Notes under the pieces: generated by a model
The model's database searches: none
Seen by the model: only the letters and a program-made list of their open reading frames with translations
Told to the model about the DNA's origin: nothing
In this document: positions 9,456 through 26,160 of the stretch, one piece after another
Position numbering within the stretch: the stretch's first letter is position 1
Layout of the letters: the number at the start of each line of letters is the position of its first letter
Program-made: the position numbers and the translations under genes
Assembly: GCA_017628235.1 (NCBI GenBank)
Contig: JAGBZM010000050.1
Coordinates: 1-39,010, forward strand
Origin: Lentisphaeria bacterium
GTDB taxonomy: Bacteria; Verrucomicrobiota; Lentisphaeria; Victivallales; Victivallaceae
Length of the DNA stretch: 39,010 nt
Reading direction: 5' to 3'

Positions 9456-10187
9456 TCAGTTATTGGAATCAAATTCAATATTGAATGCAGTGTATTTGCG
9501 GCGGGCATCAGCGATGTGCCGCCGCATCAGATTTTCCGCCAGATCATCCCAATGGCGGATGATCGCATTGTAGATCATGGTATGTTCTTCAAAGACCCGG
9601 GTCTGTTCCGCCAGATCGCCAGGCATTTTGCGCCCCAGAATAAAGGCGAATGTGATTTGGGATTTAAGCATGGACAAACGCTGTTTGAGCAGCTGATTGC
9701 AGCTGGCATCCGTGATGGCGGCATGGAAATCCAGATCCTCATAAAAGGTCGGCAGCACACCGTCCGAGTGTTGTCCGGCAGCTTTTTTCAGATAATTTTC
9801 TTCAGCATCCAGTGAACGCTTTATCTTTTCCAGATCTTCCGGTCTGGCTTCTCTGGCCGCCGCCGCCGCCGCCATTCCTTCGAGCATTTCGCGCAGCTGG
9901 AATAATTCATCGATATCCTTGCCGGTGAATTTCCGCATGAAACATCCCTGATACGGACGGCTCTGCACCCAGCCTTCATATTCCAGACGGCGGAAAGCTT
10001 CGCGTACCGGAGTGGCACTGATACCGAACTCTTCAGCCAGACGCTCTTCGCGCAAAGGAGTTCCCGGCGGCAGTTGTTCCGCCATGATCTTCTGCATTAT
10101 TTTCTCATAGGCAATGCCCATTGAAGTCGATTTTTTTGATGCACACATAAAATCAAGAATACCCCTCAGTGCGTTGTTGCTTTTCAT
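9456..10187 (-). CDS. GntR-family regulator, FadR/FCD subgroup
   Basis: From the ATG at 10187 the protein has 243 residues. An N-terminal winged helix (IMAEQLPPGTPLREERLAEEFGISATPVREAFRRLEYEGWV) is followed by a helical FCD ligand domain with the metal-site-like residues of the family (EDLDFHAAI, EEHTMIYNAI and a late HIADARRK). FCD regulators usually sense organic acids or sugar acids. The start is uncertain: GTG 10202, ATG 10187 and ATG 10148 are all in frame and none has an ideal ribosome binding site (GAGGGG lies 13 bases before 10148). The gene is divergent from the SDR-led operon at 10408, so control of that operon is the obvious inference. Confidence 0.88.
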   Translation of the reverse strand: MKSNNALRGILDFMCASKKSTSMGIAYEKIMQKIMAEQLPPGTPLREERLAEEFGISATPVREAFRRLEYEGWVQSRPYQGCFMRKFTGKDIDELFQLREMLEGMAAAAAAREARPEDLEKIKRSLDAEENYLKKAAGQHSDGVLPTFYEDLDFHAAITDASCNQLLKQRLSMLKSQITFAFILGRKMPGDLAEQTRVFEEHTMIYNAIIRHWDDLAENLMRRHIADARRKYTAFNIEFDSNN

Positions 10188-10336
10188 ATTAATATATCGC
10201 ACAAGGGAAAATTTTTCAAGTGATACCGGGTAATATTATTGCCGGGAAATATCCCGAAAAATAAAATATTCTATAGATTATTCTGATTTTTCGGAGGGAA
10301 TTTGTAAAAAAAATTAAAAAACAGCAATAAATTCTA

Positions 10337-10364: not shown

Positions 10365-10407
10365 TACAGTGCGATACCGGAAAAATAACACACAAGGGGG
10401 AATTACC

Positions 10408-11229
10408 ATGAATGGAAATGATCGCACATTAGCCGGACTCCGCGATCTGCAGTCTTTATCCGGACGGATCGCACTGGTTACCGGCGGCTGCCGCAACTTC
10501 GGTGCGGAAATTGCTTCCGGTCTGGCAGAGGCCGGAGCAGTGGTGATCGTGACCGCCCGGGAACTGGAACGGGCAGTCAGAGGAGCAGCGGAATTGTCGG
10601 AAGCGGTCGGATTTGATTTTATTCCAATGGAACTGGAATTGACCGATGAAAAATCGGTTACAGCTCTTTTTGCGGAGGTGAAAGAACGTTTCGGCCGTTT
10701 GGATATTCTGGTGAATAACGCCGGAGGTCATTCCAAAAAGGCGTGCGGCCTGCTGGAAAAAGAGTCACTGGAAGGATGGCACGAATTCATTGAACCGAAT
10801 ATGACCGGAACCTTTCTGATGATCCGGGAATTTGCCAGACTGATGATGCCGCAGGGAAGCGGTTCGATCATCAATGTGGCGAGTATGGCTGGTATGGTCG
10901 GGCGTGACCGTAAAATCTACGGCGATGATATGACACCCAATCCGATAGCTTATTCTGCGGCCAAAGCCGGAGTTATCGGTATGACTTATGATTGCGCCGC
11001 TTATCTCGGTGAGTACGGTATCCGGGTGAATGCGATTTCTCCCGGTGGTTTTGCCAGAACCCAGCCGGAACACTTCATAAAGGATTATTCTCAACTGACC
11101 ATGCTCAAACGCATGGGGAGAGCCGGATATGATCTCAAAGGGGCGGTCGCTTTTCTTGCTTCGGATGCAGCGGCATATATAACCGGGCATAATCTGGTGA
11201 TCGACGGCGGATTCACCCGGTATAAATAA
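10408..11229 (+). CDS. SDR-family NAD(P)-dependent oxidoreductase
   Basis: The protein has 273 residues, a classical short-chain dehydrogenase length. The ATG at 10408 follows AAGGGGG. An in-frame GTG at 10369 is rejected because it falls at the predicted transcription start. A Rossmann dinucleotide site TGGCRNFG lies near residue 30, NNAGG near residue 105, and the catalytic set is Ser159, Tyr182 and Lys186 (YSAAK). The Ser-Tyr gap is about 10 residues longer than usual because of an insert around GRDRKIYGDD. The C-terminal GHNLVIDGGF is typical of gluconate 5-dehydrogenase/KduD-like enzymes. It is the first gene of the operon and probably oxidises or reduces a sugar or sugar-acid carbonyl; the substrate cannot be read. 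Confidence 0.92.
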   Translation: MNGNDRTLAGLRDLQSLSGRIALVTGGCRNFGAEIASGLAEAGAVVIVTARELERAVRGAAELSEAVGFDFIPMELELTDEKSVTALFAEVKERFGRLDILVNNAGGHSKKACGLLEKESLEGWHEFIEPNMTGTFLMIREFARLMMPQGSGSIINVASMAGMVGRDRKIYGDDMTPNPIAYSAAKAGVIGMTYDCAAYLGEYGIRVNAISPGGFARTQPEHFIKDYSQLTMLKRMGRAGYDLKGAVAFLASDAAAYITGHNLVIDGGFTRYK

Positions 11230-11245
11230 TATAAGGAAAGATAAG

Positions 11246-12205
11246 ATGTTGAATTTCGGCATGGTCGGCATGAATGAGGGCAACGGTCATCCATACTCTT
11301 TTTCAGCGGCATTCAATGGTTTTGATGACCGGGCGCTGGAGAAGGATTGTGATTTTCCCATCATCCGGCAGTATTTGCGGGCGCATCACCGCAATCAGGA
11401 ATTTATTTCCGGCGCCCGGATCTCTCATATTTACACTCCGGACCCGGAATTGTCGGCCAAAGTAGCCCGGGTGGCCAATATCCCGCATATTGCCGGCAGT
11501 CTGGAAGAATTGGCGGAAAAGACCGACGGGATCATTTTTGCCCGGGATGACATGTGGAACCACTGGCCGATGGCCGGAAATCTGTTCCGCACCGGAAAAC
11601 CGGTTTATATGGATAAACTGTTGGCACATACGGTAGAAGATCTGAAAAAATTTATCGCTGCCGCCGGAGAGGATTATCCGCTGCTTACCGCATCAAGCTA
11701 CCAATTCGCGCCGAATATCCGCCAGGCCGCAGCAACCATGCCGCTGGATAAACTGATGCTGGTACGGGGAGTAAGTCCGGTGATCTGGATACGTTATGCC
11801 CCGCATCTGCTCGGTGCACTTTTCCGGGTTTGCGGCAATGATATCGTGTCGGTACAGAATTGCGGATGTGACCGGGCAGATACAGTGGTGCTGACTTACC
11901 GCAGCGGTTTGCAGGCGGTGATGCAGGTGTTCGAGGGGATATCGCTGCCGCTGGGATTGGATTTTCACTTTCATTCACCGCAAAGTCCGATATCAGTACC
12001 CTATACGGATGAAACTCTTGAATCATATTTTTTGAGTATTGTGGAGATGATGCGCGGGTTTACCGTTATGGTGCAAAACGGTACCAGGGCGGTATCTTGG
12101 CAGGAAACTTTGAAAACCAATGCCATTGTACTGGCGGCGGTCAGATCCCGTGAGGAGCAGGGCAGAAAGATTTTTGAAGATGAATTTATGGAGTGTATAA
12201 GATGA
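11246..12205 (+). CDS. Gfo/Idh/MocA-like oxidoreductase
   Basis: The protein has 319 residues, somewhat short for the family (about 330-390). It opens with a Rossmann-like FGMVGMNEGNGHPYSF and has the expected order of elements, including KPVYMDKLLAH where family members usually have KP-x-x-x-EKP. The catalytic-type Lys124 is kept but the flanking Glu and Pro are Asp123 and Leu125. The C-terminal half has the alpha/beta sheet pattern of the substrate domain. AAGGAAAG precedes the ATG. Its last bases overlap the next gene as ATGA, indicating translational coupling. Members oxidise or epimerise sugars, inositols or their glycosides with NAD(P). Assignment to the family is likely; activity is less certain given the altered motif. 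Confidence 0.78.
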   Translation: MLNFGMVGMNEGNGHPYSFSAAFNGFDDRALEKDCDFPIIRQYLRAHHRNQEFISGARISHIYTPDPELSAKVARVANIPHIAGSLEELAEKTDGIIFARDDMWNHWPMAGNLFRTGKPVYMDKLLAHTVEDLKKFIAAAGEDYPLLTASSYQFAPNIRQAAATMPLDKLMLVRGVSPVIWIRYAPHLLGALFRVCGNDIVSVQNCGCDRADTVVLTYRSGLQAVMQVFEGISLPLGLDFHFHSPQSPISVPYTDETLESYFLSIVEMMRGFTVMVQNGTRAVSWQETLKTNAIVLAAVRSREEQGRKIFEDEFMECIR

Positions 12206-13365
12206 AAATAAAAAAACTTTATCAAAGCACGGTATACCGCGATCCGGAATTTTTTGCCAGTTTCCCGGCGGTGACTGCGCTGCCGGACGGCAGGCTGCTG
12301 GCGGTGTTCCGCCGGGCACCGAACTATTGCCGGATGCCGGGGATCGCGGAAGATAACGTGCTGCATCTGGATTATAATTCCAAACTTATGGGGGCTTATT
12401 CAGCCGACGGCGGCCGTACCTGGAGCGAACCGGAACTGCTTTATGCCCCTCCTGCGGGAGCCGCGCAGGACGGCGGGGCATTCTGTGACGGGAAATATGT
12501 TTATGTCAACAGTTTTGTCTGGGGTTATATTCCGGAACGGACTGCCGAAGCCTTGAAAGAACAGGGCAAAGATGAATACCTTATCGGCCGGCGTCCGCAT
12601 CCGGATTGGCTCACCGCAGTTCCCTACGGCAGTGTCATGCTGCGGCGGGAACTTACGCAGGAGAAGTGGGAAGGACCGTTTTTTCCGGAACCGCTGCCCG
12701 ACGGCAGTGAAGTTCTGCCGGGCAGACCACGACTGATGCACAACCGGGCGAATATCTGTCGCGGTATCGACGGATCATTGCTCTGGGCCGGAGAATATTA
12801 CAGTTACCGCAACGGTTTTCATGCATCATGTGTTCTTTACCGGAGCATTGATGACGGCAGAACTTTTCAATATCTGGCCACCCCTGCTCCCGATAACGGC
12901 AGCGGGGTTTATGAAGAACCGTTTCTGTATATCACTCCGGGCGGTAAATATGTCATGCTGATCCGCTGCCATCAGGATGATTTTACCGGAGAAAAATATG
13001 AGCGCGCCATGCTTTATATCACGGAATCTTCAGATCAGGGAAAAAGTTGGAGCCGGTTGAAAAATACCGGTATCCACGCCGAACCGGCGGCAGCGTACCG
13101 GTTGGACGGCGGCGAATGTCTGCTGGTGTACGGTTACAGAAATGAGCCATTCGGAGTGCGCGGCCGGATTTGCGATGCCGAATTGGAAGATATCCGGGCG
13201 GCGGAAGAATTCATCATCCGGGATGACGGCGGCCGGATCGATACCGGTTATCCCTGGATCGCGCCTCTGGGCGGAAACAGATATTTTGTCATTTATTATA
13301 ATAACCACATCCGCCACCAGGGAGCCGGCGGAGTGGAGGGAACAGTCTTGGAAATTGTAAAGTGA
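12202..13365 (+). CDS. Sialidase-fold (BNR/Asp-box) protein, cytoplasmic
   Basis: The protein has 387 residues from the ATG at 12202, which overlaps the preceding TGA and has GGAG at 12190-12193. Three Asp-box motifs mark a six-bladed beta-propeller: SADGGRTWSEP, SIDDGRTFQ and SSDQGKSWSR. An early YRDPEFFASFPAV and RPRLMHNRANICR could supply part of an arginine/aspartate active site. There is no signal peptide, so any hydrolysis would occur inside the cell on an imported oligosaccharide. Sialidase-superfamily members act on sialosides, uronides or other glycosides, and some are non-catalytic; no nan genes are nearby, so sialic acid is not implied. Confidence 0.8.
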   Translation: MKIKKLYQSTVYRDPEFFASFPAVTALPDGRLLAVFRRAPNYCRMPGIAEDNVLHLDYNSKLMGAYSADGGRTWSEPELLYAPPAGAAQDGGAFCDGKYVYVNSFVWGYIPERTAEALKEQGKDEYLIGRRPHPDWLTAVPYGSVMLRRELTQEKWEGPFFPEPLPDGSEVLPGRPRLMHNRANICRGIDGSLLWAGEYYSYRNGFHASCVLYRSIDDGRTFQYLATPAPDNGSGVYEEPFLYITPGGKYVMLIRCHQDDFTGEKYERAMLYITESSDQGKSWSRLKNTGIHAEPAAAYRLDGGECLLVYGYRNEPFGVRGRICDAELEDIRAAEEFIIRDDGGRIDTGYPWIAPLGGNRYFVIYYNNHIRHQGAGGVEGTVLEIVK

Positions 13366-13374
13366 GGATGAAAA

Positions 13375-14526
13375 ATGAAAAACTGGCGGATCGGCAGTAA
13401 TGAATTGGCTTATGTGACGGAACTGCTCAACGGCGGATTTCCCGGACGGCAGTCCCGGGGATTTGTCGGAGAACTTGAGAAAAATTTTGCGGAGAAAACC
13501 GGCTCAAAATATGCTATAAGTTTTACCAACGGTACCGCAACTTTGCATGCGGCACTGGTCGCTTGCGGAGTCGGTCCGGGCGATGAAGTGATCGTACCGC
13601 CGCTGACGATGAGCAGTACCAGTCTGGCGGTGCTGCACGCCGGAGCGAAACCGGTTTTTGCCGATGTCGATCCGGATACCTTTGTCCTGACCTGGGAAAC
13701 GGTCAAACCGCATATTTCCAGCCGTACCAAAGCGGTCATGCCGGTCAATCTTTACGGATTGCCGGCCGTTACGGAGGAGTTTGTCCGTCAGGCGGACAGC
13801 TGCGGATTGCCGGTCATTGAGGACAGTGCCCAGTGCTTTCTGGGAAAAGCTGACGGCCGTTATGCCGGTACCATCGGTAAAATCGGCAGCTTCAGTTTTC
13901 AGAATTCCAAACATATGACCTGCGGCGAAGGCGGGATGACCGTTACCGACGATCCGGAACTGGCTCAGAAACTGCGCCGCTTCTCCAGTCTGGGATATGG
14001 GCAGATCAGTGCGGAACCGGGTAAATCCAAGATCGATAAAAATGTTATTGCAGCTCCGGAAACCATCCGGCACGTGGAATATGGATTCAATTACCGGCTC
14101 TCGGAGATCTGCGGGGCGGTGGCTCTGGCCCAGCTGGAACGGTTGGATGAATTTACGGCCCGGCGTATCCGGTGCGCCGAAGCATTCATGGAGGTCATCG
14201 ACGGCTGCAAATTTCTGAAAGTACAGAAAACTCCGGCCAATACGGTCAACAGTTACTGGGCACTGGCAGCGGAACTGGATCAGAATACAGTCAGCTGGAA
14301 GGAGTTTCAGCAGGAGTTCCTGAAACAGGGCGGCGACGGTTTTTACGGTGCCTGGCGTCTGGCGTATCAGGAACCATTCTTTGCCGCACTTTATCCGCAG
14401 GTCTCCTGTCCGGTGGCAGAGAGACTGCAGCGCAATATGATACAATTCAAAACCCATTATCTTTTTGAGGAGGAAATGCCGTCACAATTGAATGCCTTGA
14501 AGTCTGTTATCAGTAAGTTTTCCTGA
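13375..14526 (+). CDS. DegT/DnrJ/EryC1-family PLP aminotransferase
   Basis: The protein has 383 residues, the usual length for fold-type I sugar aminotransferases. It shows [12 protein letters not shown] (phosphate-binding region), [11 protein letters not shown] (Asp that pairs with the pyridine nitrogen) and [14 protein letters not shown] with Schiff-base Lys179. Members transfer an amino group from Glu or Gln to keto-sugars or cyclitol ketones such as scyllo-inosose; some run in the deaminating direction in catabolism. The gene starts 10 bases after the sialidase-fold gene with GAGGA before its ATG. With the SDR and Gfo/Idh neighbours it fits a keto-sugar or keto-cyclitol amination or deamination step. 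The direction and substrate are inference. Confidence 0.9.
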
Positions 14527-14554
14527 CATAAACCCAAATATAGGAGATGTAAAA

Positions 14555-15340
14555 ATGAACAGTTCCAAATCTTTCACCCTTTCCGTCCGGAAAGTAAACC
14601 GCATGCGGTTTACTTTGATCGAATTGCTCGTGGTTATTGCGATTATCGCGATTCTGGCGGCGATTTTGCTGCCTGCGCTCAATTCGGCCAGAGAACGCGG
14701 CCGCACGGCCAGCTGTGTCAACAATCTCAAACAGATCGGTCTGGCATGCAATATGTATACTCAAGCGTATGATGATTGGATCGTACCGGGCAATGCGGTA
14801 TACGGCTCCAAGAGTTACTATTGGTACAATTTTCTGAAAGATGTCGGCGGTTTGCTGTTTGAGGATGATCAGAAAGGGACGAAGGAGATGGGAATATTCG
14901 CCTGTCCGTCCGAAAGTGTCGGCGGCGGTGATTATAAAGATAATTCTCCGTCTAAATTCCGTCATACTCATTATGGAGTCAATGGCAAATTAAGCGGTTA
15001 CTTTGACGGAACCCAATGGCTCGCCAGCCGTCAGCCGCAGAAACTCGGTATCATCAAGAATGGCAGTTCCGTTATGCAGGCAATGGATCTCAACGGCCGC
15101 AGCCACATGTTCATCGACAATATGTGGTATGCCGCATTCCGGCACGGGGCAGCTGATCCGCGTCAGACTACTACTTATGAAACGGTTTTGTCCACTTCAC
15201 CGGGGGTTGCCGCGCTGAAAGGCAAATCTAATATGGTCTTTGTGGACGGCCACGTGGAGAGCAAGAATGGTTACGACGTCTACTATATGTCCGGAACCGG
15301 CGGCGGCGACAAATTTCTCACTTTCGGAATATCTTTATAA
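14555..15340 (+). CDS. Prepilin-like protein with N-terminal methylation motif and H-X9-DG-type C-terminus
   Basis: The protein has 261 residues with TAGGAG upstream of the ATG. Residues 19-41 are a type IV pilin/pseudopilin leader, [16 protein letters not shown], with Glu23 at the +5 position. The residue before Phe19 is Arg18, where prepilin peptidases normally need Gly. After the helix come [22 protein letters not shown] and, near the end, MVFVDGHVE, the end of the H-X9-DG-type domain of Planctomycetes/Lentisphaerae secretion proteins. It is probably a membrane-anchored pseudopilin-like protein. Its place in the middle of a glycan operon is typical of these phyla, but its role (surface display, secretion or substrate capture) is unknown. 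Confidence 0.88.
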
Positions 15341-15355
15341 ACAGGAGAATGTTTC

Positions 15356-18307
15356 ATGGATAAGAAGATAAAAAGATGTTTCCTCTTATACCTTCTGTTT
15401 TCCGCAGCGGCAGTATTATCCGCAGCGGACGGCGGGGTTTGGAAATTCAATGACGGTACTGACCGGAAACTTGCCGAATCCGGTAAAAGCGGTGTGACCG
15501 GAATCGTTCACGGAGATAATTTCGGTTGGGGCAGTGAAGATGACCGGGGAATTTTTCTTGCATTCAACGGCCGGGGCGAAGGTTTTGCTGAATTTCCGGC
15601 TTCTCCGGTCTTTGTCCCGCAGGGTGATTTCCGTATCGCGGTACGTTTCGCCTGCGATCTTGCTTCGGTAAAAGGAGTTCAGCCGCTGCTGGAGAAAAAA
15701 GGTGCATATTCGGTGGCTGTCCGTCCATCCGGAGAGCTGACAATCGCTTTCCCCGCCAACAACGTGGAGCTGACCGGTAAAAATCTGCAGATCCAATCCG
15801 GGGTCGATTGCGACCTGAGCATGACCCGTACCGGCAATAAACTGACGGTGAAACTCAACCGGCAGAGCGTGGAAACTTCTTTCACCGGAGAAATTCCGGT
15901 TACTGATGCGCCGCTGTATGTTGGCGGTGTCCCGGGGAAGTTCTGCAAAAGTCACTGGTTCAAACTGGAATTCGGCAATCCGGAAAAAACTGCCGCTGTA
16001 CAGAAAAAATCTGTTCTGCAGAGTGATCCGCCGGGAACGGTCATGTTTTATGATTTCGTTAATATGGAACCTGCCGGTTCGGTTGCTGCTTACACTTTCA
16101 AAGTGGATAAATGGGTGCTGCGTAAATCTCCCATGCTTCTGAACCGCACCCATATTCTGCATCCGCCGGCAATGGGCGGCAACGATATTACTTTTGATCC
16201 CAAGGTCAAAGGCAGATACGATCTGTATGTCGGTATGCGTATGACCGATACCGCCGGTCAGATCCAGGTGCAGGTCACCGGAATGGATGATTATTACACG
16301 GTGGAAACTCCCGCCCGGGGCACCAAACACACCAATTGCCACATTCTGCTGGAGAAATCTCTGGATATGACCGGTAAAAAAGTCACCCTCCACAGCGTGG
16401 GCGACCGGGTCTATTTCGACTTTATCAAGCTGGTTCCGTCAGAAGCAAATATGGAATATCCTCTGCCGGAAGGCAGCGTGCCGGTGGTGACCAGGGAAAA
16501 ACGCAAGTATCCCGCCGAAAGGGTCGCGGAAAGACTTAAATCCAACCCAAAATACCGGAAACGGATCTATATCAGCAACAAAACTATGCCTGCACCGGCA
16601 AAAGAAAGTGTGGAATCCGGATTTATGATTTATCCGGTGAATTATATGGACATGATTTTTCCGGAATCATTTCCCGCTGCTGATACGGCGGTGCCGGAAT
16701 TGAAAATTTCTGCTGCCAAAGGCGAATTTGAACCGGGAAGCTTCTGCATTATCCCGCTGAAAGACGGTGAAAAATACTCCTTCTCCGTTGGTCGTTTCCG
16801 CAATGGTTCCAACGAGATCCCGGCGGAAAATCTCAAACTCGGCTATGTCCGTCATCTGCCGCGCCGTACGATCGCCTGTTACGGGGCAAGTGAATACATG
16901 GACGGTCCTCAGTATATCGAAGGCAACATTCCGCAAAAATTTCCCGCCAAACAGATTTCCCAGTTTTTCCTGACGGTGAAAGTTCCGGAAAACGCGGCAC
17001 CGGGGGTATATTCCGGCAGCATCACCATTTCCGCCGGGAAAAACAACCGGGTCCTGCCGGTGAAATTGACGGTATATCCTTTTGTTCTTGACCGGACATT
17101 CGGCTACGATATCGGAATGAGTACCGCCATGCAGAATATCGGTTTTGACGATGATGCCGCTGAAATAAAAGATTTGCGGGATCACGGGATCAATACACTT
17201 TTTATTCAGACCGGAATCGGCGGTGATTATGTGGAAATTTCCGGTGACACTCCGGAAACCATCAAGGTCGATTATGACAATTCCCGTCTCTTCAAGATCA
17301 TGAAAGAGATGAAACGTCTCGGATTTGAGGGGCATATCCGTATGGAGTGCGGCTTCGCGTTGCGCTATGCCCAAAAATTTCTGCCGGATAAAAAGGCTTA
17401 CGATCAGGCTATTGTCAATATCATGGCACAGATCAACAACCATGCCAAAGAAAAAGGTTATGCGCCGATGTGCTTTCAGTTGTATGATGAGATTGTTTCC
17501 CATCCGCACATGCTGGATGCTTATTACGAGGGCATCAAACGTTTGAAAGCTGCCGGTATCACGATCATCGGCAACCATATGTGGAAAAAGACTACCAGGG
17601 CCTACCCGGAAAAAGTTGCCCGCTGCATACCGTATATCGACATTTTCAGTATGCGTTACAACAGCCGCAACCTCTGGTATGTTGATGCCTGGGATGAGAT
17701 CGAGGATGCCTGTAAAGAGGACGGCAAAGTGCTTCATGCTTACAACTCCAATAACGCCGTCACATTCACTCAGACTGCGACAATGCGTTATATGGTCGGC
17801 TGGTTTTTCCGTACTGCCGGCAAGGGGACCAGAGGTCACGGTACCTGGTGTTATCAGTGGCCCAACGGCAATCCTTATGAAGAATTTGACTCCTCCGGCA
17901 GCGACTGGATCTATTTCTATCCGCCGAATCCCAATGAAAATATCGCCGGAGGCCCGTCGATAAACTGGGAATGTATGCGCGAAGGTATTGACGATCTGCG
18001 CTATATCCTGACATTGGAAAATCTGATCGCCCGGGCCGCCAAATCCGGCAACACGCAAGCTGCGGCATCGGGAAAGAAGCTGTTGAAAAAATTGCAGAAT
18101 GCTTTTGATATCGAGGAGATGTCCCGCCGTTGTATCTTTCTGGAGCAGAAATGGGAGAAATCCGGTTCTCTGCCCGACGGCACGCTTTATGCTTCAGGGG
18201 AATTCAATATTCCCAACGGAGTGAAACTTGCTGATTACAACCGTTTCCGTGAAGCTATCGCCCTGGAGATCATCAAAATCAGTGCCGAATTGAGTAAGGG
18301 AAGGTAA
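15356..18307 (+). CDS. Large secreted GH123-like (DUF4091) protein with LamG-type N-terminus
   Basis: The protein has 983 residues with ACAGGAG before the ATG. Residues 1-23 are a signal peptide (basic MDKKIKR, a hydrophobic run, then LSA-AD). Residues ~24-205 look like a concanavalin/LamG sandwich (WKFNDGTDRKL to LYVGGV) and ~215-365 like a second carbohydrate-binding-type sandwich. From ~420 onward is a GH123-like region: a beta domain and then an (alpha/beta)8-type barrel with FQLYDE at Asp711-Glu712, the position of the Asp-Glu pair used in substrate-assisted N-acetylgalactosaminidase catalysis. WECMREGIDDLRYILTLENL near residue 870 is a hallmark of DUF4091 proteins. It is probably extracellular or periplasmic and acts on an acetamido-sugar or related glycoside. 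Catalytic assignment is by family resemblance only. Confidence 0.82.
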   Translation: MDKKIKRCFLLYLLFSAAAVLSAADGGVWKFNDGTDRKLAESGKSGVTGIVHGDNFGWGSEDDRGIFLAFNGRGEGFAEFPASPVFVPQGDFRIAVRFACDLASVKGVQPLLEKKGAYSVAVRPSGELTIAFPANNVELTGKNLQIQSGVDCDLSMTRTGNKLTVKLNRQSVETSFTGEIPVTDAPLYVGGVPGKFCKSHWFKLEFGNPEKTAAVQKKSVLQSDPPGTVMFYDFVNMEPAGSVAAYTFKVDKWVLRKSPMLLNRTHILHPPAMGGNDITFDPKVKGRYDLYVGMRMTDTAGQIQVQVTGMDDYYTVETPARGTKHTNCHILLEKSLDMTGKKVTLHSVGDRVYFDFIKLVPSEANMEYPLPEGSVPVVTREKRKYPAERVAERLKSNPKYRKRIYISNKTMPAPAKESVESGFMIYPVNYMDMIFPESFPAADTAVPELKISAAKGEFEPGSFCIIPLKDGEKYSFSVGRFRNGSNEIPAENLKLGYVRHLPRRTIACYGASEYMDGPQYIEGNIPQKFPAKQISQFFLTVKVPENAAPGVYSGSITISAGKNNRVLPVKLTVYPFVLDRTFGYDIGMSTAMQNIGFDDDAAEIKDLRDHGINTLFIQTGIGGDYVEISGDTPETIKVDYDNSRLFKIMKEMKRLGFEGHIRMECGFALRYAQKFLPDKKAYDQAIVNIMAQINNHAKEKGYAPMCFQLYDEIVSHPHMLDAYYEGIKRLKAAGITIIGNHMWKKTTRAYPEKVARCIPYIDIFSMRYNSRNLWYVDAWDEIEDACKEDGKVLHAYNSNNAVTFTQTATMRYMVGWFFRTAGKGTRGHGTWCYQWPNGNPYEEFDSSGSDWIYFYPPNPNENIAGGPSINWECMREGIDDLRYILTLENLIARAAKSGNTQAAASGKKLLKKLQNAFDIEEMSRRCIFLEQKWEKSGSLPDGTLYASGEFNIPNGVKLADYNRFREAIALEIIKISAELSKGR

Positions 18308-18310
18308 AAT

Positions 18311-19642
18311 ATGAGTGGAATGCGTAAATTGTACTTGAGTATCTGCTGTGCGGTATTCACATTGACTGTTTGCGGCGCGGAAAAAATCGTCTTTGCCGGT
18401 GATTTGCTCACTTACAGCGGCGATTACCGCGCGATCGCCCAGGTTTATATGGCTCTGCGCAAGCCGGAGCAGAAACTTTATCTGCTCAATGCCGGGATCA
18501 TGGGTGAAACAGCTGCAGATGCCTTGAGAAGAGTGGATTGGGATATTTTACATCATCAGCCGTCAAAAGTGTTTCTGCTTTTCGGTTTGTCTGATGTCAG
18601 AAAAAACATCCGTTATACCAGAAACGGGGCGGTGGTTGATCCGGCTTCGATCCAGTCATACAAAAGTGCAATGGAGCAAATGACAGACAAACTGCTTGCC
18701 GCCGGATGCAAAGTGGTGCTGGTCTCCCCATTTCCCTATGATCAGGAGAGCGATATTGCCGCTTACAATGAAAAACTCAACGGTGATCCGGGGTTTGCCG
18801 GTTTGACTGCGGTGCTTAAAGATATTGCCGCGCAGAAGAATGTGGAACTGCTTGATGTTCACACGGAATTGAGCAGAATTATTGCGGCCGGGGATGGTGA
18901 TATAAATTTGTTCCGGAAAAATTCCCGGGTCGATCCCAGCCGGACCGGTTCTGTCGCGCTGGCCATGCTGATTGCAGAGAATCTGGGAGCAAACATTCCT
19001 GTCGCGGAAGTGAAAATCGATGCCGCCGCCGGTAAATATGATGCCAAAGGTGCCGAATTACGCTACTTCCGCGCTTCAGACAGATCGGTTCGTTTCACTT
19101 ATCGTCCGGAACGTCTGCCGCTGCCGGTCGATCGTGATTACCGTGCCCTTGCTGAAGTTATGGAACTGGATAAAAAACTCAACTCCGAAATGCTGAGTGT
19201 TACCGGATTGGCAGAGGGAATGTATGAGTTCAAAATCAACGGTATCACGGTTAAAACATTTTCCGCATCCGATCTTGCCGGAGGTATAAATCTGGCTCAT
19301 ATCGATACTACTTCCAACCGCACTGCTAAAGAGTTGTCCGGATTGGTCCCCCGGCTGATATCTTCTCCGGGGGCATTGCGTCGGCTCGCTGTTGCCGGGG
19401 ATATCATCCGCCGCAGCGGCGGAGAACCGGTTGATAAGGCAGCCGGGATGAAGATCCTTGAGCAAACTGCCGCCGGGAGCAAAGATAAAATATATCTGGC
19501 CCAGGTGATTACAGAATATCAGAAAAACATTGATAAAAAAGATGTTCTGGAAAAGCAGATTCTGACTCAGATCGATTCTCTTTACTCCCGGGCGGCACTC
19601 CGGCAGTTCAGCGTGGAAATAACTCCGATGGCAGGGAATTGA
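18311..19642 (+). CDS. Secreted SGNH-fold protein, catalytic residues replaced (predicted pseudoenzyme)
   Basis: The protein has 443 residues, starts 4 bases after the previous stop and has AAGGGAAGG upstream. Residues 1-23 form a signal peptide. The SGNH/GDSL blocks are recognisable but altered: block I reads F-A-G-D-L (Leu32 where the nucleophile Ser belongs), block II keeps N-A-G-I-M-G, block III reads G-L-S-D (Ser94 for Asn), and block V reads S-R-V-D-P (Ser205 and Asp208 where Asp and His belong). So Ser, Asn and the Asp/His dyad are all missing, although the fold seems kept. The remaining ~230 residues have no family I recognise. A binding or accessory role in the locus is more likely than esterase activity. 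Confidence 0.75.
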   Translation: MSGMRKLYLSICCAVFTLTVCGAEKIVFAGDLLTYSGDYRAIAQVYMALRKPEQKLYLLNAGIMGETAADALRRVDWDILHHQPSKVFLLFGLSDVRKNIRYTRNGAVVDPASIQSYKSAMEQMTDKLLAAGCKVVLVSPFPYDQESDIAAYNEKLNGDPGFAGLTAVLKDIAAQKNVELLDVHTELSRIIAAGDGDINLFRKNSRVDPSRTGSVALAMLIAENLGANIPVAEVKIDAAAGKYDAKGAELRYFRASDRSVRFTYRPERLPLPVDRDYRALAEVMELDKKLNSEMLSVTGLAEGMYEFKINGITVKTFSASDLAGGINLAHIDTTSNRTAKELSGLVPRLISSPGALRRLAVAGDIIRRSGGEPVDKAAGMKILEQTAAGSKDKIYLAQVITEYQKNIDKKDVLEKQILTQIDSLYSRAALRQFSVEITPMAGN

Positions 19643-19646
19643 GATC

Positions 19647-21968
19647 ATGAGTTTCTGGGATTGGCTGATTGTTCTGGTGCCGCTGGCATTTATTATGTAC
19701 ATGTCGTACAATTCACGGCGTTATATCCGGGGGGTGGCGGACTTTCTGGCTGCCGGCCGGGTTTGCGGCCGTTATGTCATTGCGGTGGCCGGAGTGTCGG
19801 TAAGTTTGTCGGTGATGAATCTGGTGGCGAATGCCGAAGTATACTATAAAACCGGTTTTGCCATATCATTCTGGAACAACATCCTGCTGCCGGTATCCAT
19901 GATCCTGGCATTAAGCGGATTTTGTTATTATCGTTTCCGGGAGACCAGATCGTTGTCGCTGGGACAGTTTCTGGAGTTGCGCTACAATCGCCCGCTGCGG
20001 GTTTTTGCTTCCGGGTTGCGAACTTTTTCTGAGATGGTGACCAATATGATCTGTCCGGCGGTCACGGCGCGGTTTTTCATCTATCTGCTGGATCTGCCGG
20101 AGTATTGGGAGGTCGGAAGCGTCAGAGTGTCGGTGTTTGCGCTGGTGATCGTCATTGTACTGGCGATCTCACTGACGATCATTTGTATGGGAGGGACGCT
20201 GGCACTGCTGATTTCCGACACTATCCAGTCGCTGATCTGTTATCCGGTATTTGCGGTATTTGTGATTTTTATTCTGTACCGTTTTTCCTGGAACAATGAG
20301 ATCGTTCCGGTGATGACCGACCGGGTGGCGGGGGAAAGTTTCATCAACCCGTTTGATATAAGCTGCCTGCGGGACTTCAATATTTTTGCTTTGATCGTCA
20401 CGACTCTCAGCACGATCCTCAATCATGCCAGTTGGATCGGGGCAAGTACATCAACCGCCGGGCGGACTCCGCATGAACAGAAGATGGCTGGAATACTCGG
20501 TACCTGGCGCAACGGGTTTTCACTGCTGTTTTACTTCATGGTCTCCGCGATGCTGCTGGTGGTGCTGAACCATCAGAATTATGCGGAAAAGGCCAAAAAT
20601 ATTCGGGATCAGGTGACGGTAAGGATCGCTTCCGGAACTTTTCATGATCAGGATGTGCAGGAAAAAATCAGCCGAAGTGTGACCGGTATCCCGGCGCAAA
20701 AGCATATTGCCGACGGTACTTCGCCATTGTCGCAGGAGAAGAATCTGGAAACGGTCTATTTTGAAAAGGTACACGATGCTCTGGAACACTCTCCGGAGGG
20801 GAATCGCAACTTTCAGGAGTTTCGCACGTTATACAATCAGATGTTGCTGCCGGTGACCATGCGGCACACTCTGCCGGCCGGGTTGATCGGGTTGTTTGCA
20901 CTGCTGATGGTCATGCTGATGATATCCACTGACAGCACCCGGATATTCAGCAGTTCGGTAACGCTGGTTCAGGATGTGGTACTGCCGTTTATGGCGGATA
21001 AACAGCTTTCTTCGCGCAAGCATATCATGCTTTTGCGGTTGATGTCACTTGGGGTGGGGGTGTTGTTTTTCTGCGGATCATTTTTTATGGCGCAGCTGGA
21101 CTACATCAATCTTTTCTGCATTATCATGACTTCGATCTGGCTGGGTGGTGCCGGGCCGGTGATGGTATTCGGGTTATACAGCCGCCGGGGAACTTCCGCC
21201 GGAGCGTTTGCTTCACTTTTTACCGGGATGTTCATTGCGGTATCGGGGATATTTCTGCAGCGGAATTGGGCGGATCTGATTTATCCGGCGTTGGAAAAAT
21301 ATGGTATGGTCGAAATGTTTGACCGCTTTTTACGCAACATTTCTGCTCCGTTTGCCCCTTATATCCAGTGGCAGATGGATCCGGTGAAGTTTCCGGTCAA
21401 TTCGATGGAGATATTCTTTATCGCCATGATATTGGGGATCACGGCATATTGGGTGGTGTCACTGCTGACCTTGAAACAGCCATTCAATCTGGACAGGATG
21501 CTGCACCGGGGCAGATATGCAGATGCGGCAGAAGCCGTTGAAACTGCTGATGGACAGAAAGATTCACTTTTTCAGAAGTTTCTGCAGAAGATCGTGGGAA
21601 TTTCCCGGGATTACAGCCGGTCGGACAAAGTGATCGCCTGGTCAGTTTTCGTATTCACCTTTGTTTACCAATTCGGTCTGACTTTTCTGGCGGTGCTGAT
21701 CTGGCAGAGTATTTCGCCGCTGCCGGAAAAGTGGTGGGGAGATTATTTTCTGATCGTATTTCTGGTGGTTCCGGCAGTGGTGGCGGCGATATCGACGGTG
21801 TGGTTCACCATCGGCGGGATCGTGGATCTGCGGCAGATGTTCCGGGATCTGCGTAAACGGACAGACAATCCGCTGGATAACGGCCAGGTTTCCGGCAATG
21901 TGTCAAAGGTGGATGCCGGAGCATTTGAAAAAATCGACAGTGCGGTCAATGGGAAAGAGGAAAAATAA
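19647..21968 (+). CDS. SSS-family sodium/solute symporter
   Basis: The protein has 773 residues against about 450-600 in typical members. It starts as an extracytoplasmic N-terminus plus first helix (WDWLIVLVPLAFIMYMSY), followed by VADFLAAGRVCGRYVIAVAGVSVSLSVMN, the standard helix 1-2 region. At least a dozen hydrophobic segments follow. A hydrophilic insert at residues ~306-408 separates two membrane segments, and the C-terminus has extra helices plus a ~45-residue soluble tail. The gene starts 4 bases after the SGNH-fold gene and its TAA overlaps the next ATG (TAATG). It is the only transporter of the operon and so is presumed to import the released sugar or oligosaccharide with Na+. Confidence 0.9.
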   Translation: MSFWDWLIVLVPLAFIMYMSYNSRRYIRGVADFLAAGRVCGRYVIAVAGVSVSLSVMNLVANAEVYYKTGFAISFWNNILLPVSMILALSGFCYYRFRETRSLSLGQFLELRYNRPLRVFASGLRTFSEMVTNMICPAVTARFFIYLLDLPEYWEVGSVRVSVFALVIVIVLAISLTIICMGGTLALLISDTIQSLICYPVFAVFVIFILYRFSWNNEIVPVMTDRVAGESFINPFDISCLRDFNIFALIVTTLSTILNHASWIGASTSTAGRTPHEQKMAGILGTWRNGFSLLFYFMVSAMLLVVLNHQNYAEKAKNIRDQVTVRIASGTFHDQDVQEKISRSVTGIPAQKHIADGTSPLSQEKNLETVYFEKVHDALEHSPEGNRNFQEFRTLYNQMLLPVTMRHTLPAGLIGLFALLMVMLMISTDSTRIFSSSVTLVQDVVLPFMADKQLSSRKHIMLLRLMSLGVGVLFFCGSFFMAQLDYINLFCIIMTSIWLGGAGPVMVFGLYSRRGTSAGAFASLFTGMFIAVSGIFLQRNWADLIYPALEKYGMVEMFDRFLRNISAPFAPYIQWQMDPVKFPVNSMEIFFIAMILGITAYWVVSLLTLKQPFNLDRMLHRGRYADAAEAVETADGQKDSLFQKFLQKIVGISRDYSRSDKVIAWSVFVFTFVYQFGLTFLAVLIWQSISPLPEKWWGDYFLIVFLVVPAVVAAISTVWFTIGGIVDLRQMFRDLRKRTDNPLDNGQVSGNVSKVDAGAFEKIDSAVNGKEEK

Positions 21969-23623
21969 TGTCGTTCAAAGTAAAATTTGTCAGTTCTCTG
22001 AGTAAAGTTTTTCCGGACAGGGAGCCAGAAGGCGGATACCGGTCAGGAAGTGCGTTGAAAAATGAAGTTTTTTCATTTCAGGCAGCCTTTTGCTGCAGTG
22101 AACAATGGCTGGATGTGGAGGTGAAAACAGATTCGCCTCTTGCCGGATATATTACTGTAAGAGAAGTATCTCTGGTTCCGGTGGAACATTTGCCGGAGGA
22201 GCTTGATGATGATGCTCTTTTGCGGACTCCCGGGTTGGCTCCGGATCTGCTGCGTCCTTTGTGGAACAACAAAATAATGACCGATGCCGGAGTATGGCAG
22301 TCGCTTTGGTTTACGGTAAAGATCCCGGCGGATTTTCCGGCCGGCAAAGCTCCGGTCAGAATCACATTCACCGGCTGCGATCAACAGCAGAAACGCCGTT
22401 TCAAAGTGACCTCTGTTTTCAATCTTAAAGTGATCGATGCGGTGCTTCCGGAACAGAAATTAAGTGTTTCCCACTGGTTTCACGGAGATTGTCTGGCCAC
22501 ATTTTACCGGGAAAAAGTCTTCAGTGAAAAACATTGGCAGATCTGTGAAAACTTCATCCGCAATGCGGTCGCTCACGGGATGGACACTCTGCTTACTCCG
22601 GTTTTCACTCCGCCGTTGGATACTCAGGTCGGCGGTGAACGTCCCACGATCCAGCTGGTCGGGATAAAGAAAGACGGTCAGAAATATTCCTTTGACTTTT
22701 CCCGGTTGAAACGCTGGGTGGAAATGGCGGAATCCTGCGGGATACGCTTTTTTGAAATGGCACATTTATTCACCCAGTGGGGGGCGGGATTCACCCCCAA
22801 GATCATGGCTGAAACAGCGGAGGGAGAAAAGCGGATTTTCGGCTGGGATATTCCGGCAGATTCACCAGAATACGAAAACTTTTTAGCGCAGTTCCTGCCG
22901 GAATTGTGCGCATTCCTGGATAGATTGAATTTGCGGGAAAGGGTGATATTCCACTGTTCGGATGAACCGCGCAAACACCATTTAAAAAGTTATGCGTATG
23001 CTTCCGGACTTATCCGTAAATATCTGCACGGATTCAAAATCGTTGATGCCATGTCCAGAATGGAACTCTTTGAAAGCGGTTGCGTCGATATCCCCGCTGT
23101 ATGCGAACATCATTATGAACCGTTCCGTAAAATCGATCTTAAAGAACGTTTCATCTATTACTGCTGTGAACCGTTTTCACGCTATCCCAACCGTTTCATC
23201 CATATGCCGTCCTGCCGGAACCGGATTTTCGGAACGTTGATGTATTGCTATAACATCGACGGATTTATGCATTGGGGATTCAATTTCTACTACTCCCGTT
23301 TTTCCCGTTTTCCGGTCGATCCTTTCGGCGGCACGACAGCGGGACATGCTTTCCCGGCCGGAGATGCATTTCTGGTCTATCCCGGAGATAATGGCGAAGT
23401 TCTGGATTCGATCCGGCATGAAGTTTTTTATGAAGCGTTGCAGGATATGCGGCTGCTTCAGTTGTTGGAAACATATTATTCCCGCAGTGAATTGCTCCGG
23501 GCATTGAACCGTTTCGCAGCCGGGAAGGAGCTGGATCTGCTGGACTATCCCAAAACGGAAAATATGGTACTGAAACTCCGCAAAAAACTGGAATCGATGC
23601 TCCGTAAGGCTTTGAAAAAATAG
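21968..23623 (+). CDS. Cytoplasmic GH123-like (DUF4091) protein
   Basis: The protein has 551 residues with no signal peptide or binding modules. It matches the catalytic part of the DUF4091/GH123 type: an N-terminal beta region (KNEVFSFQAAF), a barrel with IFHCSDEP placing an Asp-Glu pair at 332-333, and a late EALQDMRLLQLLETY that parallels the family mark EGIDDLRYILTLE in the large secreted paralogue. GGFMHWGFN-type aromatic residues line the expected pocket. Translation is coupled to the symporter through a TAATG overlap. Probably it hydrolyses the imported product. It is the last gene before a strong terminator, so the operon ends here. Confidence 0.82.
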   Translation: MSFKVKFVSSLSKVFPDREPEGGYRSGSALKNEVFSFQAAFCCSEQWLDVEVKTDSPLAGYITVREVSLVPVEHLPEELDDDALLRTPGLAPDLLRPLWNNKIMTDAGVWQSLWFTVKIPADFPAGKAPVRITFTGCDQQQKRRFKVTSVFNLKVIDAVLPEQKLSVSHWFHGDCLATFYREKVFSEKHWQICENFIRNAVAHGMDTLLTPVFTPPLDTQVGGERPTIQLVGIKKDGQKYSFDFSRLKRWVEMAESCGIRFFEMAHLFTQWGAGFTPKIMAETAEGEKRIFGWDIPADSPEYENFLAQFLPELCAFLDRLNLRERVIFHCSDEPRKHHLKSYAYASGLIRKYLHGFKIVDAMSRMELFESGCVDIPAVCEHHYEPFRKIDLKERFIYYCCEPFSRYPNRFIHMPSCRNRIFGTLMYCYNIDGFMHWGFNFYYSRFSRFPVDPFGGTTAGHAFPAGDAFLVYPGDNGEVLDSIRHEVFYEALQDMRLLQLLETYYSRSELLRALNRFAAGKELDLLDYPKTENMVLKLRKKLESMLRKALKK

Positions 23624-23700: not shown

Positions 23701-23744
23701 CGATCGCGGCTCAACAAGGAGAGCCGCGATCGGTTTTCTTTATT
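23701..23744. terminator. Bidirectional terminator between the glycan operon and nrdD
   Basis: A 12-bp perfect stem (23701-23712 with 23721-23732) with an 8-nt loop is followed by a T-rich tract on the plus strand (GTTTTCTTTATT). It is preceded by an A-rich tract that gives U-richness on the minus strand. It sits between two convergent genes and can serve both. Confidence 0.9.
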
Positions 23745-23754
23745 ATTCTGCCGG

Positions 23755-25047
23755 TCAGCGATCAGCGGGAACCAGCATATCGATGTATTTGCGGATGGCA
23801 GATATTCCGGTGAATTTCTCCACATTTTTGCCATTGACCGCGACCAGAGTCGGAGCCTGACTGATGGCGAATTCGCGGGCTTTTTCCGGTTCCTGATCGG
23901 CCACGACTACGGAGTAGACGATTCCGGCCTTATCCAGAAAAGTTTTCGCGATCCGGCAGTTGGGGCAGGTCGTGGTGGTGAAAAGGATCAACTCTTCTGA
24001 AGCGACAGCCGGAGCGGCTTTGGCGGCCGGAGCCGTGACCATTGCCGGAGTGCAGGAACATCTGCCGCCTTCACCGAATTCCCGTTTGATCGCGGTGTAA
24101 GCGTTGTAAACCTTGCGGTCTTTGTATTCCTGAGTTTTACCGTCGTTCCAGTTCTGCACCGGGCGGTAGTATCCGGTGATCCGGCTGTAAACCTCGGTTT
24201 TGCTGCCGCAATCCGGACATTTGAATTGTTCACCGGCGATGTATCCGTGATTGTGACAGATGGAGTATGTCGGTGACATGGTATAGTACGGCAGCCGGTA
24301 ATTTTCCGCAATTTTGCGGACAAGGTTGGCAGCGGCCTGCCAGTCGGGGAGTTTCTCTCCGAGGAAGGCGTGGAAGACGGTTCCACTGGTGTAGAGGGTC
24401 TGCAATTCATCCTGCACATCCAACGCGGAAAAGATGTCATCAGTAAAGCTGACCGGCAGATGGGAACTGTTGGTGTAATACGGGGTGCCGTTTTCATTGG
24501 CGGTAACGATATCACCGAAACGGTTTTTATCATGTTTGGCCAGACGGAAGCTGGTGGATTCGGCCGGAGTGGCTTCGAGGTTGTAGAGATCCCCGTACTG
24601 TTCCTGATAATCCGAGAGCCGTTCACGCATGTGGTTGAGAACATCTTTGGTGAAGTTCTGAGCTTCGGCATGGATAAGATCTTTTTTGATCCATTTGGCA
24701 TTGAGACACGCTTCATTCATGCCGACCAGACCGATGGTGGAGAAGTGGTTGTCGAATTTGCCCAGATAACGTCTGGTGTACGGATAGAGACCTTCATCCA
24801 GCAGTTTGGAGATAACTTCACGTTTGATTTTCAGTGAACGTGCGGAAATATCCATCATGTGATCCAGGCGGTTGTAGAAGTCAGCTTCATTTTCCGCGAG
24901 ATAGGCGATACGCGGCATATTGATGGTGACTACCCCGATGGAACCGGTACTTTCACCGGAACCGAAGAAACCGCCGGATTTTTTACGCAGTTCCCGCAGA
25001 TCCAGACGCAGACGGCAGCACATGGAACGGATATCGCTGGGTTCCAT
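23755..25047 (-). CDS. nrdD: Anaerobic ribonucleotide reductase NrdD, C-terminal part with thioredoxin-fold extension
   Basis: This is the continuation of the N-terminal part beyond the in-frame TAA at 25084-25086. The coordinates run from the first downstream Met, but that ATG has no ribosome binding site and homology (GTPYFSNYVNSD) continues up to the stop codon. Visible are DMEPSDIRSMCCRLRLDLRELRKKSGGFFG and GSIGVVTINMPRIAYL, a zinc-site pair (SICHNHGY and KCPDCGS), and the glycyl-radical loop R-I-T-G-Y-Y-R, where the Gly would carry the radical made by NrdG. After the normal NrdD end (FKDRK-like EYKDRKVYN) come a GGRCSC segment, an Ala/Pro linker and a ~80-residue thioredoxin/glutaredoxin-like domain with C-P-N-C and a cis-Pro-type QAPTLV. 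The extension may serve as a built-in reductant. Confidence 0.85.
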   Translation of the reverse strand: MEPSDIRSMCCRLRLDLRELRKKSGGFFGSGESTGSIGVVTINMPRIAYLAENEADFYNRLDHMMDISARSLKIKREVISKLLDEGLYPYTRRYLGKFDNHFSTIGLVGMNEACLNAKWIKKDLIHAEAQNFTKDVLNHMRERLSDYQEQYGDLYNLEATPAESTSFRLAKHDKNRFGDIVTANENGTPYYTNSSHLPVSFTDDIFSALDVQDELQTLYTSGTVFHAFLGEKLPDWQAAANLVRKIAENYRLPYYTMSPTYSICHNHGYIAGEQFKCPDCGSKTEVYSRITGYYRPVQNWNDGKTQEYKDRKVYNAYTAIKREFGEGGRCSCTPAMVTAPAAKAAPAVASEELILFTTTTCPNCRIAKTFLDKAGIVYSVVVADQEPEKAREFAISQAPTLVAVNGKNVEKFTGISAIRKYIDMLVPADR

Positions 25048-25083
25048 ATCGCTGTTGACGTAGTTGGAGAAGTAGGGAGTGCC

Positions 25084-25086
25084 TTA
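25084..25086 (-). other. In-frame TAA interrupting nrdD
   Basis: On the minus strand the codons read ACC AGT AAA TAA GGC ACT CCC TAC, i.e. T-S-K-stop-G-T-P-Y. Family members have a Tyr or other aromatic residue at this place (T-[SA]-K-Y-G-x-P-Y), so a single third-base change from TAC or TAT explains it. TAA is the normal stop of several other genes here, so genome-wide reassignment is excluded. Confidence 0.9.
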
Positions 25087-26160
25087 TTTACTGGTCATCT
25101 CAAAGAGCAGTTTGTTGTTTTCCGTTTCGCTCCAGTCGAAATCCCGGGTGATGGAATAGGTCGGGATCGGATACTGGAAGCCCCGGCCCTGTGCATCACC
25201 CTCGATCATGGTTTCGATGAATGCGCGGTTGACCATGTCCATCTCTTTTTTACAGTCTTTGTATTTGAAATCCATCTCTTTGCCGCCGACGATGCAGTTC
25301 TGTTCGGCGAGGTCAGCCGGGACGGTCCAATCCAGCGTGATATTGCTGAAAGGAGCCTGCGTACCCCAGCGGGAGGGGGTGTTGACACCGAAAATGAATG
25401 ATTCAATACATTTTTTGACCTGATTGTAGTCCAGATTGTCCACTTTGACAAAGGGAGCCAGATAGGTATCAAAACTGCTGAAAGCCTGAGCGCCTGCCCA
25501 CTCATTCTGCATGATGCCGAGGAAGTTGACCATCTGGTTGCAGAGGGTGGCCAGATGTGAAGCCGGGGCGGAAGTGATTTTACCCGGCACACCGCCGAGT
25601 CCCTCCTGGATCAGCTGTTTGAGTGACCACCCGGCGCAGTATCCGGTCAGCATGGAGAGGTCGTGCAGATGAATATCAGCATTGCGGTGGGCGTTGCCGA
25701 TCTCGTCATCATAGATCTCCGAAAGCCAGTAATTTGCGGTGATCGCGCCGCTGTTGGAGAGGATGAGTCCGCCGACGGAGTAGGTGACGGTGGAATTTTC
25801 TTTCACGCGCCAATCGTTGATTTTGACATAGTCATCGACCGTCTTTTTGAAGTCGAGGATGGTGGACTGGGCGTTGCGGAGTTTTTCGCGCTGCCGGCGG
25901 TAGAGAATGTAGGCTTTGGCAACATCGGCGTAACCGGCCTGTACGAGGACGGATTCGACACTGTCCTGAATATCTTCAACGGCGATCAGACCTTCTTTGA
26001 TTTTGGGTTCAAAGTCGGCAGTTACTTTCAAAGCGATAAAGTCGATGATCGACTGATTGTACTGTTTTTCCTGGGCCTCAAAAGCCATTCTCACGGCATC
26101 TGAGATCTTTTTCAGATCGAAGTCGATATTTTTGCCGTTACGTTTCTGCACCTGATACAT
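25084..26160 (-). CDS. nrdD: Anaerobic ribonucleotide reductase NrdD, N-terminal part, ending at an in-frame stop
   Basis: The part has 358 residues from an ATG with AGGAGG (26174-26169) 8 bases upstream. Residues ~1-95 are an ATP-cone (VQKRNGKNIDFDLKKI and later YADVAKAYILYRRQREKLR), the allosteric activity site. The catalytic barrel follows, with HLHDLSMLTGYCAGWSLKQLI carrying the thiyl-radical Cys, then NFLGIMQNEWAGAQAFSSFDTYLAPF. The product is class III reductase, which makes dNTPs from NTPs without oxygen. The frame stops at TAA 25084-25086 and continues in the same frame for 442 more codons, so the full protein would be 801 residues. It follows nrdG by 55 bases. Either the gene is freshly broken, the stop is read through, or the base is a sequencing error. 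Confidence 0.88.
   Translation of the reverse strand: MYQVQKRNGKNIDFDLKKISDAVRMAFEAQEKQYNQSIIDFIALKVTADFEPKIKEGLIAVEDIQDSVESVLVQAGYADVAKAYILYRRQREKLRNAQSTILDFKKTVDDYVKINDWRVKENSTVTYSVGGLILSNSGAITANYWLSEIYDDEIGNAHRNADIHLHDLSMLTGYCAGWSLKQLIQEGLGGVPGKITSAPASHLATLCNQMVNFLGIMQNEWAGAQAFSSFDTYLAPFVKVDNLDYNQVKKCIESFIFGVNTPSRWGTQAPFSNITLDWTVPADLAEQNCIVGGKEMDFKYKDCKKEMDMVNRAFIETMIEGDAQGRGFQYPIPTYSITRDFDWSETENNKLLFEMTSK

Follow-up and report, generated by a model that had tools for sequence, protein, structure and literature searches.

An SGNH-fold pseudoesterase of the BT4096 type encoded in a GalNAc-related gene cluster of a Lentisphaeria bacterium

The window, i.e. the whole stretch of DNA that was analysed, is 39,010 nucleotides long and derives from a Lentisphaeria bacterium. 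Amid what resembles an operon for sugar degradation, it carries an open reading frame at positions 18311-19642 on the plus strand, with an ATG start, 443 codons plus a stop, no internal stops, and a codon usage that resembles that of its neighbors. It is the seventh of nine co-directional genes (10369-23623) that either overlap or are separated by gaps of at most 28 bases, and lies only 3 and 4 bases away from its two neighbors. The description in the first-pass annotation of an intact gene inside an operon agrees with this uninterrupted and tightly placed frame. The cluster and its immediate surroundings are as follows.

9456..10202, minus strand: divergent GntR/FCD-type regulator, upstream (PF07729, PF00392)
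10369..11229, plus strand: short-chain dehydrogenase, at the head of the cluster (PF13561/PF00106)
11246..12205, plus strand: weak GFO/IDH/MocA-like oxidoreductase (PF01408 at 21.8 bits, under the cut-off of 24)
12193..13365, plus strand: BNR-repeat sialidase-like protein (PF13088, 46 bits)
13375..14526, plus strand: DegT-type aminotransferase (PF01041, 278.6 bits)
14555..15340, plus strand: pseudopilin-like / DUF1559 protein (PF07596, 42.7 bits; TIGR02532, 22.6 bits)
15356..18307, plus strand: 983-residue protein with a GH123 N-terminal-like stretch (PF22680 at 25.7 bits, just under the cut-off of 27) and, by eye, a signal-like N-terminus
18311..19642, plus strand: SGNH-fold pseudoesterase gene (PF13472 match, AlphaFold2 model, 7br2 match)
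19647..21968, plus strand: sodium:solute symporter (SSF), 773 residues (PF00474, 44.4 bits)
21968..23623, plus strand: GH123 beta-N-acetylgalactosaminidase (PF13320, 347.5 bits), with no signal peptide evident by eye
23701..23732, no strand assigned: terminator-like stem-loop of 12 bp behind the cluster

The region holds 18 terminator-like sites against 16.7 expected by chance, the one behind the cluster having the longest stem. The GH123 assignment is strong: the protein matches 8k2l (E 2e-142) with its S-D-E-P stretch in line, the catalytic pair of GH123 enzymes being Asp-Glu, and scores 478 bits against a beta-N-acetylgalactosaminidase that releases monosaccharide. Beyond the cluster, nrdD for anaerobic ribonucleotide reductase (23755-26160, minus strand), with a glutaredoxin-like domain at its C-terminus, is split into two open reading frames in one frame by an in-frame TAA, possibly a single-base error in the assembly, though it may equally be real.

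The protein encoded at 18311-19642 reaches 35.2 bits with the Lipase_GDSL_2 profile (PF13472), for which the curated cut-off is 32.9, the alignment spanning only profile positions 32-154 of 178; such a partial and near-cut-off match is as expected where blocks I and V are degraded. From its N-terminus, which by eye has a basic start, a hydrophobic core and C-G-A ahead of E24, the protein is probably exported. Its parts, and the codons at the four catalytic positions, are these.

18311..18379, plus strand: putative Sec signal peptide, residues 1-23 (by eye; helix 4-19 in the model)
18380..19000, plus strand: SGNH alpha/beta/alpha domain, residues 24-230 (AlphaFold2 model and structure matches)
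18404..18406, plus strand: Leu32, codon TTG, for the nucleophile Ser of block I (alignments A1 and A4)
18590..18592, plus strand: Ser94, codon TCT, for the oxyanion Asn of block III (A1 and A4)
18923..18925, plus strand: Ser205, codon TCC, for the Asp of block V (A1; the column falls on N204 in A4)
18932..18934, plus strand: Asp208, codon GAT, for the His of block V (A1 and A4)
19001..19309, plus strand: beta domain, residues 231-333 (model; the part most similar to relatives with an intact site)
19310..19639, plus strand: helical C-terminal domain and final strand, residues 334-443 (model)

Structure prediction, which the first-pass annotation had proposed as a check, was run with AlphaFold2 on the protein and 25 relatives and returned the complete SGNH fold followed by the beta and helical domains (mean pLDDT 89.1, pTM 0.88). 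By Foldseek the best match of the model is BT4096 of Bacteroides thetaiotaomicron (PDB 7br2; E 5e-26, TM 0.83), a GDSL/SGNH hydrolase reported to act as a diltiazem deacetylase (PMC8808336). VIA-align of the model with 7br2 gives Z 38.2 with 413 residues aligned of the 442-residue chain, an rmsd of 2.5 and 22% identity, a full-length match to the layout of SGNH, beta and helical domains that the two proteins share. The next entry, at Z 22.8, matches the SGNH domain alone, and the SGNH structures ranked below 7br2 (Z 17 to 23) mostly cover residues 21-228, in keeping with the SGNH fold. At the sequence level, phmmer detects 7br2 at E 1e-22 over residues 24-333, and where BT4096 has S, N, D and H at the four catalytic sites, its alignment pairs them with L32, S94, S205 and D208.

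The first-pass annotation held that all catalytic residues have been replaced while structural glycines and block order are retained, and both halves of that claim are borne out at exactly the residues it named. In alignment A1, comprising the protein and 23 full-length relatives, the relatives have Ser in 21 of 23, the exceptions being L008, which has Asp, and L004, which is frameshifted at block I; Asn, Asp and His are each present in all 23. Alignment A4, of 25 relatives from named records (about six proteins are common to A1 under other locus ids), has S, N, D and H at the respective columns in every one of the 25. The Asp column falls on S205 in A1 and on N204 in A4; there is no Asp at either position, and S205 is favored by the constant D-x-x-H spacing. 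A table of 49 relatives has Ser in 46 (exceptions L004, L008 and L016), and Asn and His in 48 each, L016 being the exception for both. The block I Ser, block III Asn and block V Asp-x-x-His of active SGNH enzymes are thus missing from the protein; the block II Gly (Gly62, invariant in A1) is present, as are G30, G65, G92 and G213 and the order of the blocks. TTG, TCT, TCC and GAT are at least 1, 2, 2 and 1 base changes away from any codon for Ser, Asn, Asp and His, respectively, and since at least six concerted changes at catalytic sites would be needed, sequencing error is not a credible cause. An intact Ser-Asp-His set elsewhere in the protein, which would have told against the loss, is not found by sequence: there are only four His residues, at 81, 82, 184 and 330, and H184 aligns in A1 with a second, non-catalytic His of many relatives. 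As far as sequence can tell, the protein is confirmed as a real pseudoesterase whose canonical site is gone except for the block II Gly.

Orthologues were sought in 34 genomes of the genus, 137 of the order, 197 of the class and an even draw of 387 from the phylum, in addition to GTDB contigs, viral contigs, phages and plasmids. Across all these sets, and leaving aside the protein itself, no match spanning the greater part of it had more than 33% identity; shorter stretches reach 35%, and 41% over 49 residues. The genus-to-phylum searches used E-value limits, outside which weaker relatives fall, and at order, class and phylum level at most 12, 8 and 4 first-look candidates, respectively, were scored in some genomes. 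L043, the best-scoring relative, keeps the catalytic residues, and no orthologue with the same replacements was found in the genus, order, class or phylum-draw searches.

An alternative, which we consider unlikely, is that the gene is decaying, with catalysis lost and a relaxed remnant of no present function being carried along by the operon. That the other 33 genomes of the genus yielded no close orthologue is in its favor, and so is the end branch of the protein, which at 1.77 changes per column is long when compared with a median of 0.61. Six rows of the tree (L199, L183, L017, L042, L008 and L039) have longer end branches still, and five of these keep Ser, Asn and His, the sixth being L008 with its Asp for Ser; divergence alone therefore does not remove the site. 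(In A4, L183 departs from the consensus at 11 of 37 conserved columns, all of them outside the catalytic set.) Full neutrality of the end branch predicts about 33 stops, and neutrality of a fifth, a tenth or a twentieth of it 6.6, 3.3 and 1.7, with the probability of encountering none being about 0.001, 0.036 and 0.19 for the last three. The 443 codons without stop or frameshift consequently exclude long-standing neutrality, though a recent relaxation would be compatible with them.

Which columns have been lost is also pertinent. Conservation among the A1 relatives reaches 90% or more at 37 columns, of which the protein keeps 26 and has lost 11, a loss that is itself in line with decay. All four catalytic columns are among the 11 (hypergeometric p about 0.005, a post hoc value as the loss itself drew attention). 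The other seven are H35 in block I, M93 in block III, Y101, N158, L162, H214 just past block V, and P285, and are counted against the best explanation as they also fit partial decay. The SGNH domain has 25 of the conserved columns and has lost 10 of them, whereas 11 of the 12 that follow it are kept and 1 is lost; the difference is suggestive only (Fisher p = 0.064).

The same tendency emerges from identities by domain. The comparison set is of 20 relatives chosen as intact by residues alone, with L004, L008 and L039 left out, although L004 is counted among the 23 relatives of A1. In the 190 pairs among these 20, identity is 42.2% for the SGNH domain, 37.6% for the beta domain and 22.9% for the helical domain, and the beta domain is the more similar in 45 pairs. 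For the protein against the same 20 the values are 28.5%, 34.2% and 18.0%, with the beta domain exceeding the SGNH domain in 20 of 20; the helical domain is poorly conserved throughout, here as in the intact relatives. The mean beta-minus-SGNH difference of +0.057 lies above that of each intact relative (-0.129 to +0.043), two of which are also positive (L038 at +0.043 and L050 at +0.007). L008 is reversed likewise (+0.064, beta higher against 19 of 20), and L039, which has an odd block I with its Ser kept, is not (-0.037, beta higher against 2 of 20). A divergence concentrated in the catalytic domain, with a beta domain about as conserved as in intact relatives, argues, at the level of sequence, for a non-catalytic role and against general decay. 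The high-confidence fold points the same way, though models can look sound for a decaying protein.

Other departures from the canonical site within the group are of varied kinds. L008 (G018:C58:1091-2668, minus strand), a three-domain SGNH protein from the same genus, has GDDGTH in block I, i.e. Asp for Ser, with Asn, Asp and His kept; across 78 genomes of the family no other match to it at E<=1e-40 exceeds 32% identity. The tree resolves the position of the pseudoesterase only as far as a clade of 18 rows, where attraction between its long branch and that of L008 is possible; the losses in the two proteins may thus go back to a common ancestor or be separate events. A second pseudoenzyme lacking block I was at one stage seen in L004 (G023), and was rejected on finding GDSITHGG just upstream in another frame; a frameshift or assembly error (L051:9300-9700, G023:C7) accounts for it, and it was dropped as support. 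The idea that such loss is common in the genome of origin was likewise rejected: its 11 other PF13472 matches, a partial count given that the genome is 54% complete, all keep the block I Ser by eye, and none has all sites replaced. For one of these (L254) block V is trimmed off, in the second domain of another (L258) Asn takes the Asp position of block V, and some are members of subfamilies in which block III has different residues. The window itself encodes a second SGNH protein (36235-37692, minus strand, 485 residues), in which Ser, Asn, Asp and His are present by eye and which has no significant BLASTP similarity to the first (E 0.2).

A complete loss is, however, found elsewhere in the order. 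In the protein designated L016 or L278 (G052:C4:153323-154198, minus strand) the catalytic sites read T, S, N and F, so that all four residues are replaced as in the case under consideration; the protein differs in that its frame of 292 residues is too short for the two C-terminal domains. A search of its genus (4 genomes, 3 with a match) gave two proteins from other genomes, L279 and L280, that are 70-71% identical to it and keep S, N, D and H, and with which it has no neighbor genes in common. By the Nei-Gojobori method, dS and dN are 0.97 and 0.20, and 1.10 and 0.21, for the dead protein against the two intact ones, and 0.78 and 0.11 for the intact pair, i.e. dN/dS of about 0.20, 0.19 and 0.14, rough values as dS is near 1. 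On these pairwise values L278 has thus largely been under purifying selection, in part perhaps at a time before the loss. Though not an orthologue of the pseudoesterase, it shows, on this sequence evidence, that members of this order can tolerate and retain a complete catalytic loss. Further afield, two Latescibacterota proteins of 477 residues among 80 loci, L212 and L230, have Thr or Ala where the nucleophile Ser aligns, and Glu at the Asn position; they are possibly another pseudoenzyme group, on the evidence of blocks I and III, which the alignment covers.

Loss of the canonical site need not mean loss of all chemistry. Other residues, e.g. the conserved D31 and H184, or a metal could support a new activity in the old cleft, where D31, T34, G62, G65, G92 and H184 remain, and rearranged or reduced triads are described for some SGNH esterases, namely CE20 (PMC12313940) and the CE2 dyads and NanS (PMC9487903). 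Here, however, the nucleophile, the oxyanion Asn and both the acid and the base of block V have been replaced, and with four His residues only, of which H184 matches the additional one of many relatives, an unusual catalytic mechanism seems improbable.

What the neighboring genes convey depends on how far the arrangement extends to relatives. An operon in common with relatives was not found: a GH123 match is present in one of 20 stretches surrounding relatives (L066), several of these stretches being cut short where the contig stops. The SSF family of the symporter has undergone expansion in the class, with matches at E<=1e-60 in 113 of the 197 genomes and multiple copies in many of them. The genes from 10369 to 18307 correspond to a recurring Lentisphaeria cassette (L159, L161, L162, L164-L168) of dehydrogenase, oxidoreductase, BNR protein, DegT aminotransferase, pseudopilin and the 983-residue GH123-N-like protein, in varying subsets and orders. 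With 12 SGNH queries at E<=1e-4, no SGNH match was found in these cassette loci, a further point for those who would see decay. The same scan of 60 loci around homologs of the symporter or of the 983-residue protein gave some SGNH-like match in three (L126, L140 and L156), none close to the pseudoesterase. With surroundings not common to relatives, and a cassette that occurs without a detected SGNH gene, the functional link of the protein to the cluster rests on one locus.

This is relevant to a more specific proposal, that the protein serves as substrate-binding protein for the symporter encoded 4 bases downstream, with the SGNH cleft as capture site outside the membrane. The two genes adjoin, the protein would be exported judging by its N-terminus, and its cleft is dead; but a single one of the 60 loci (L126) has an SGNH-like match directly beside the SSF gene, a weak one of 22% identity, and SSF symporters are not known to require binding proteins. 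We regard such a partnership as highly improbable. The broadest claim, that Lentisphaeria repeatedly convert secreted SGNH esterases to binders with an abandoned cleft, whose beta domain is the conserved functional part, the present case being a glycan-capture partner of the SSF symporter, is more doubtful still.

The reading that we consider on balance probable is of a secreted SGNH-fold pseudoesterase, kin to BT4096, that no longer has any of the canonical esterase chemistry and is retained as a binding protein. The first-pass annotation had proposed selection for a non-enzymatic role such as glycan binding. Its non-catalytic part fares well, being argued over general decay by a site that is gone, a gene that is intact and a divergence concentrated in the catalytic domain; that the ligand would be a glycan we infer from genomic context and precedent, and counted in its favor is the strong GH123 gene two genes downstream. 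The secreted protein would bind a glycan, or a partner protein, via its beta domain and the old cleft, leaving the acyl groups of a bound glycan in place. A GalNAc-containing oligosaccharide might in this way be held or presented to secreted enzymes and the symporter, after which the GH123 enzyme encoded downstream would free GalNAc inside the cell.

Precedents come from several directions. The OSK domain of insect Oskar is described as an SGNH fold that is catalytically inactive and has acquired a new role (PMC2848206, PMC12247748), with Ser and His disrupted according to one of these sources (PMC2848206). An inactive SGNH fold with a new role is what is proposed here too; the insect, RNA-related setting is unlike that of the present protein. 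The OSK domain is not known to have C-terminal domains of the BT4096 type. Some plant GDSL proteins are reported to persist although they have no lipase activity, 3 of the 116 of A. thaliana being termed dead enzymes (PMC4757993), again in a different setting, as they are from plants and without a glycan operon. Closer in kind is the C-terminal domain of PgaB, described as a CE4-related pseudoesterase that binds rather than cuts glycan (PMC7828330): from bacterial carbohydrate-esterase kin, it provides a precedent for a glycan-binding pseudoesterase, although it is related to CE4 and not SGNH and forms a tandem with a second domain, likewise CE4-related, of a deacetylase. Beetle GH28 is a further described case of pseudoenzymes at work in glycan pathways. 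SGNH pseudoenzymes and glycan-binding pseudoesterases are thus already known; among the top-ranked entries of a literature search of open-licence papers there was no earlier description of a BT4096-type pseudoenzyme, and what is new is a three-domain member of that type that has every catalytic residue exchanged and is encoded within a GalNAc-related gene cluster.

A Pfam scan labels the protein a GDSL-like lipase/acylhydrolase; if the present reading is true, it is instead a binder in a Lentisphaeria GalNAc-glycan system, and the beta domain of BT4096-type enzymes would be a ligand-binding module. The reversal of domain conservation, with the accessory domain more conserved than the catalytic one, is a simple computable sign that may find other pseudoesterases among the SGNH proteins of the phylum.
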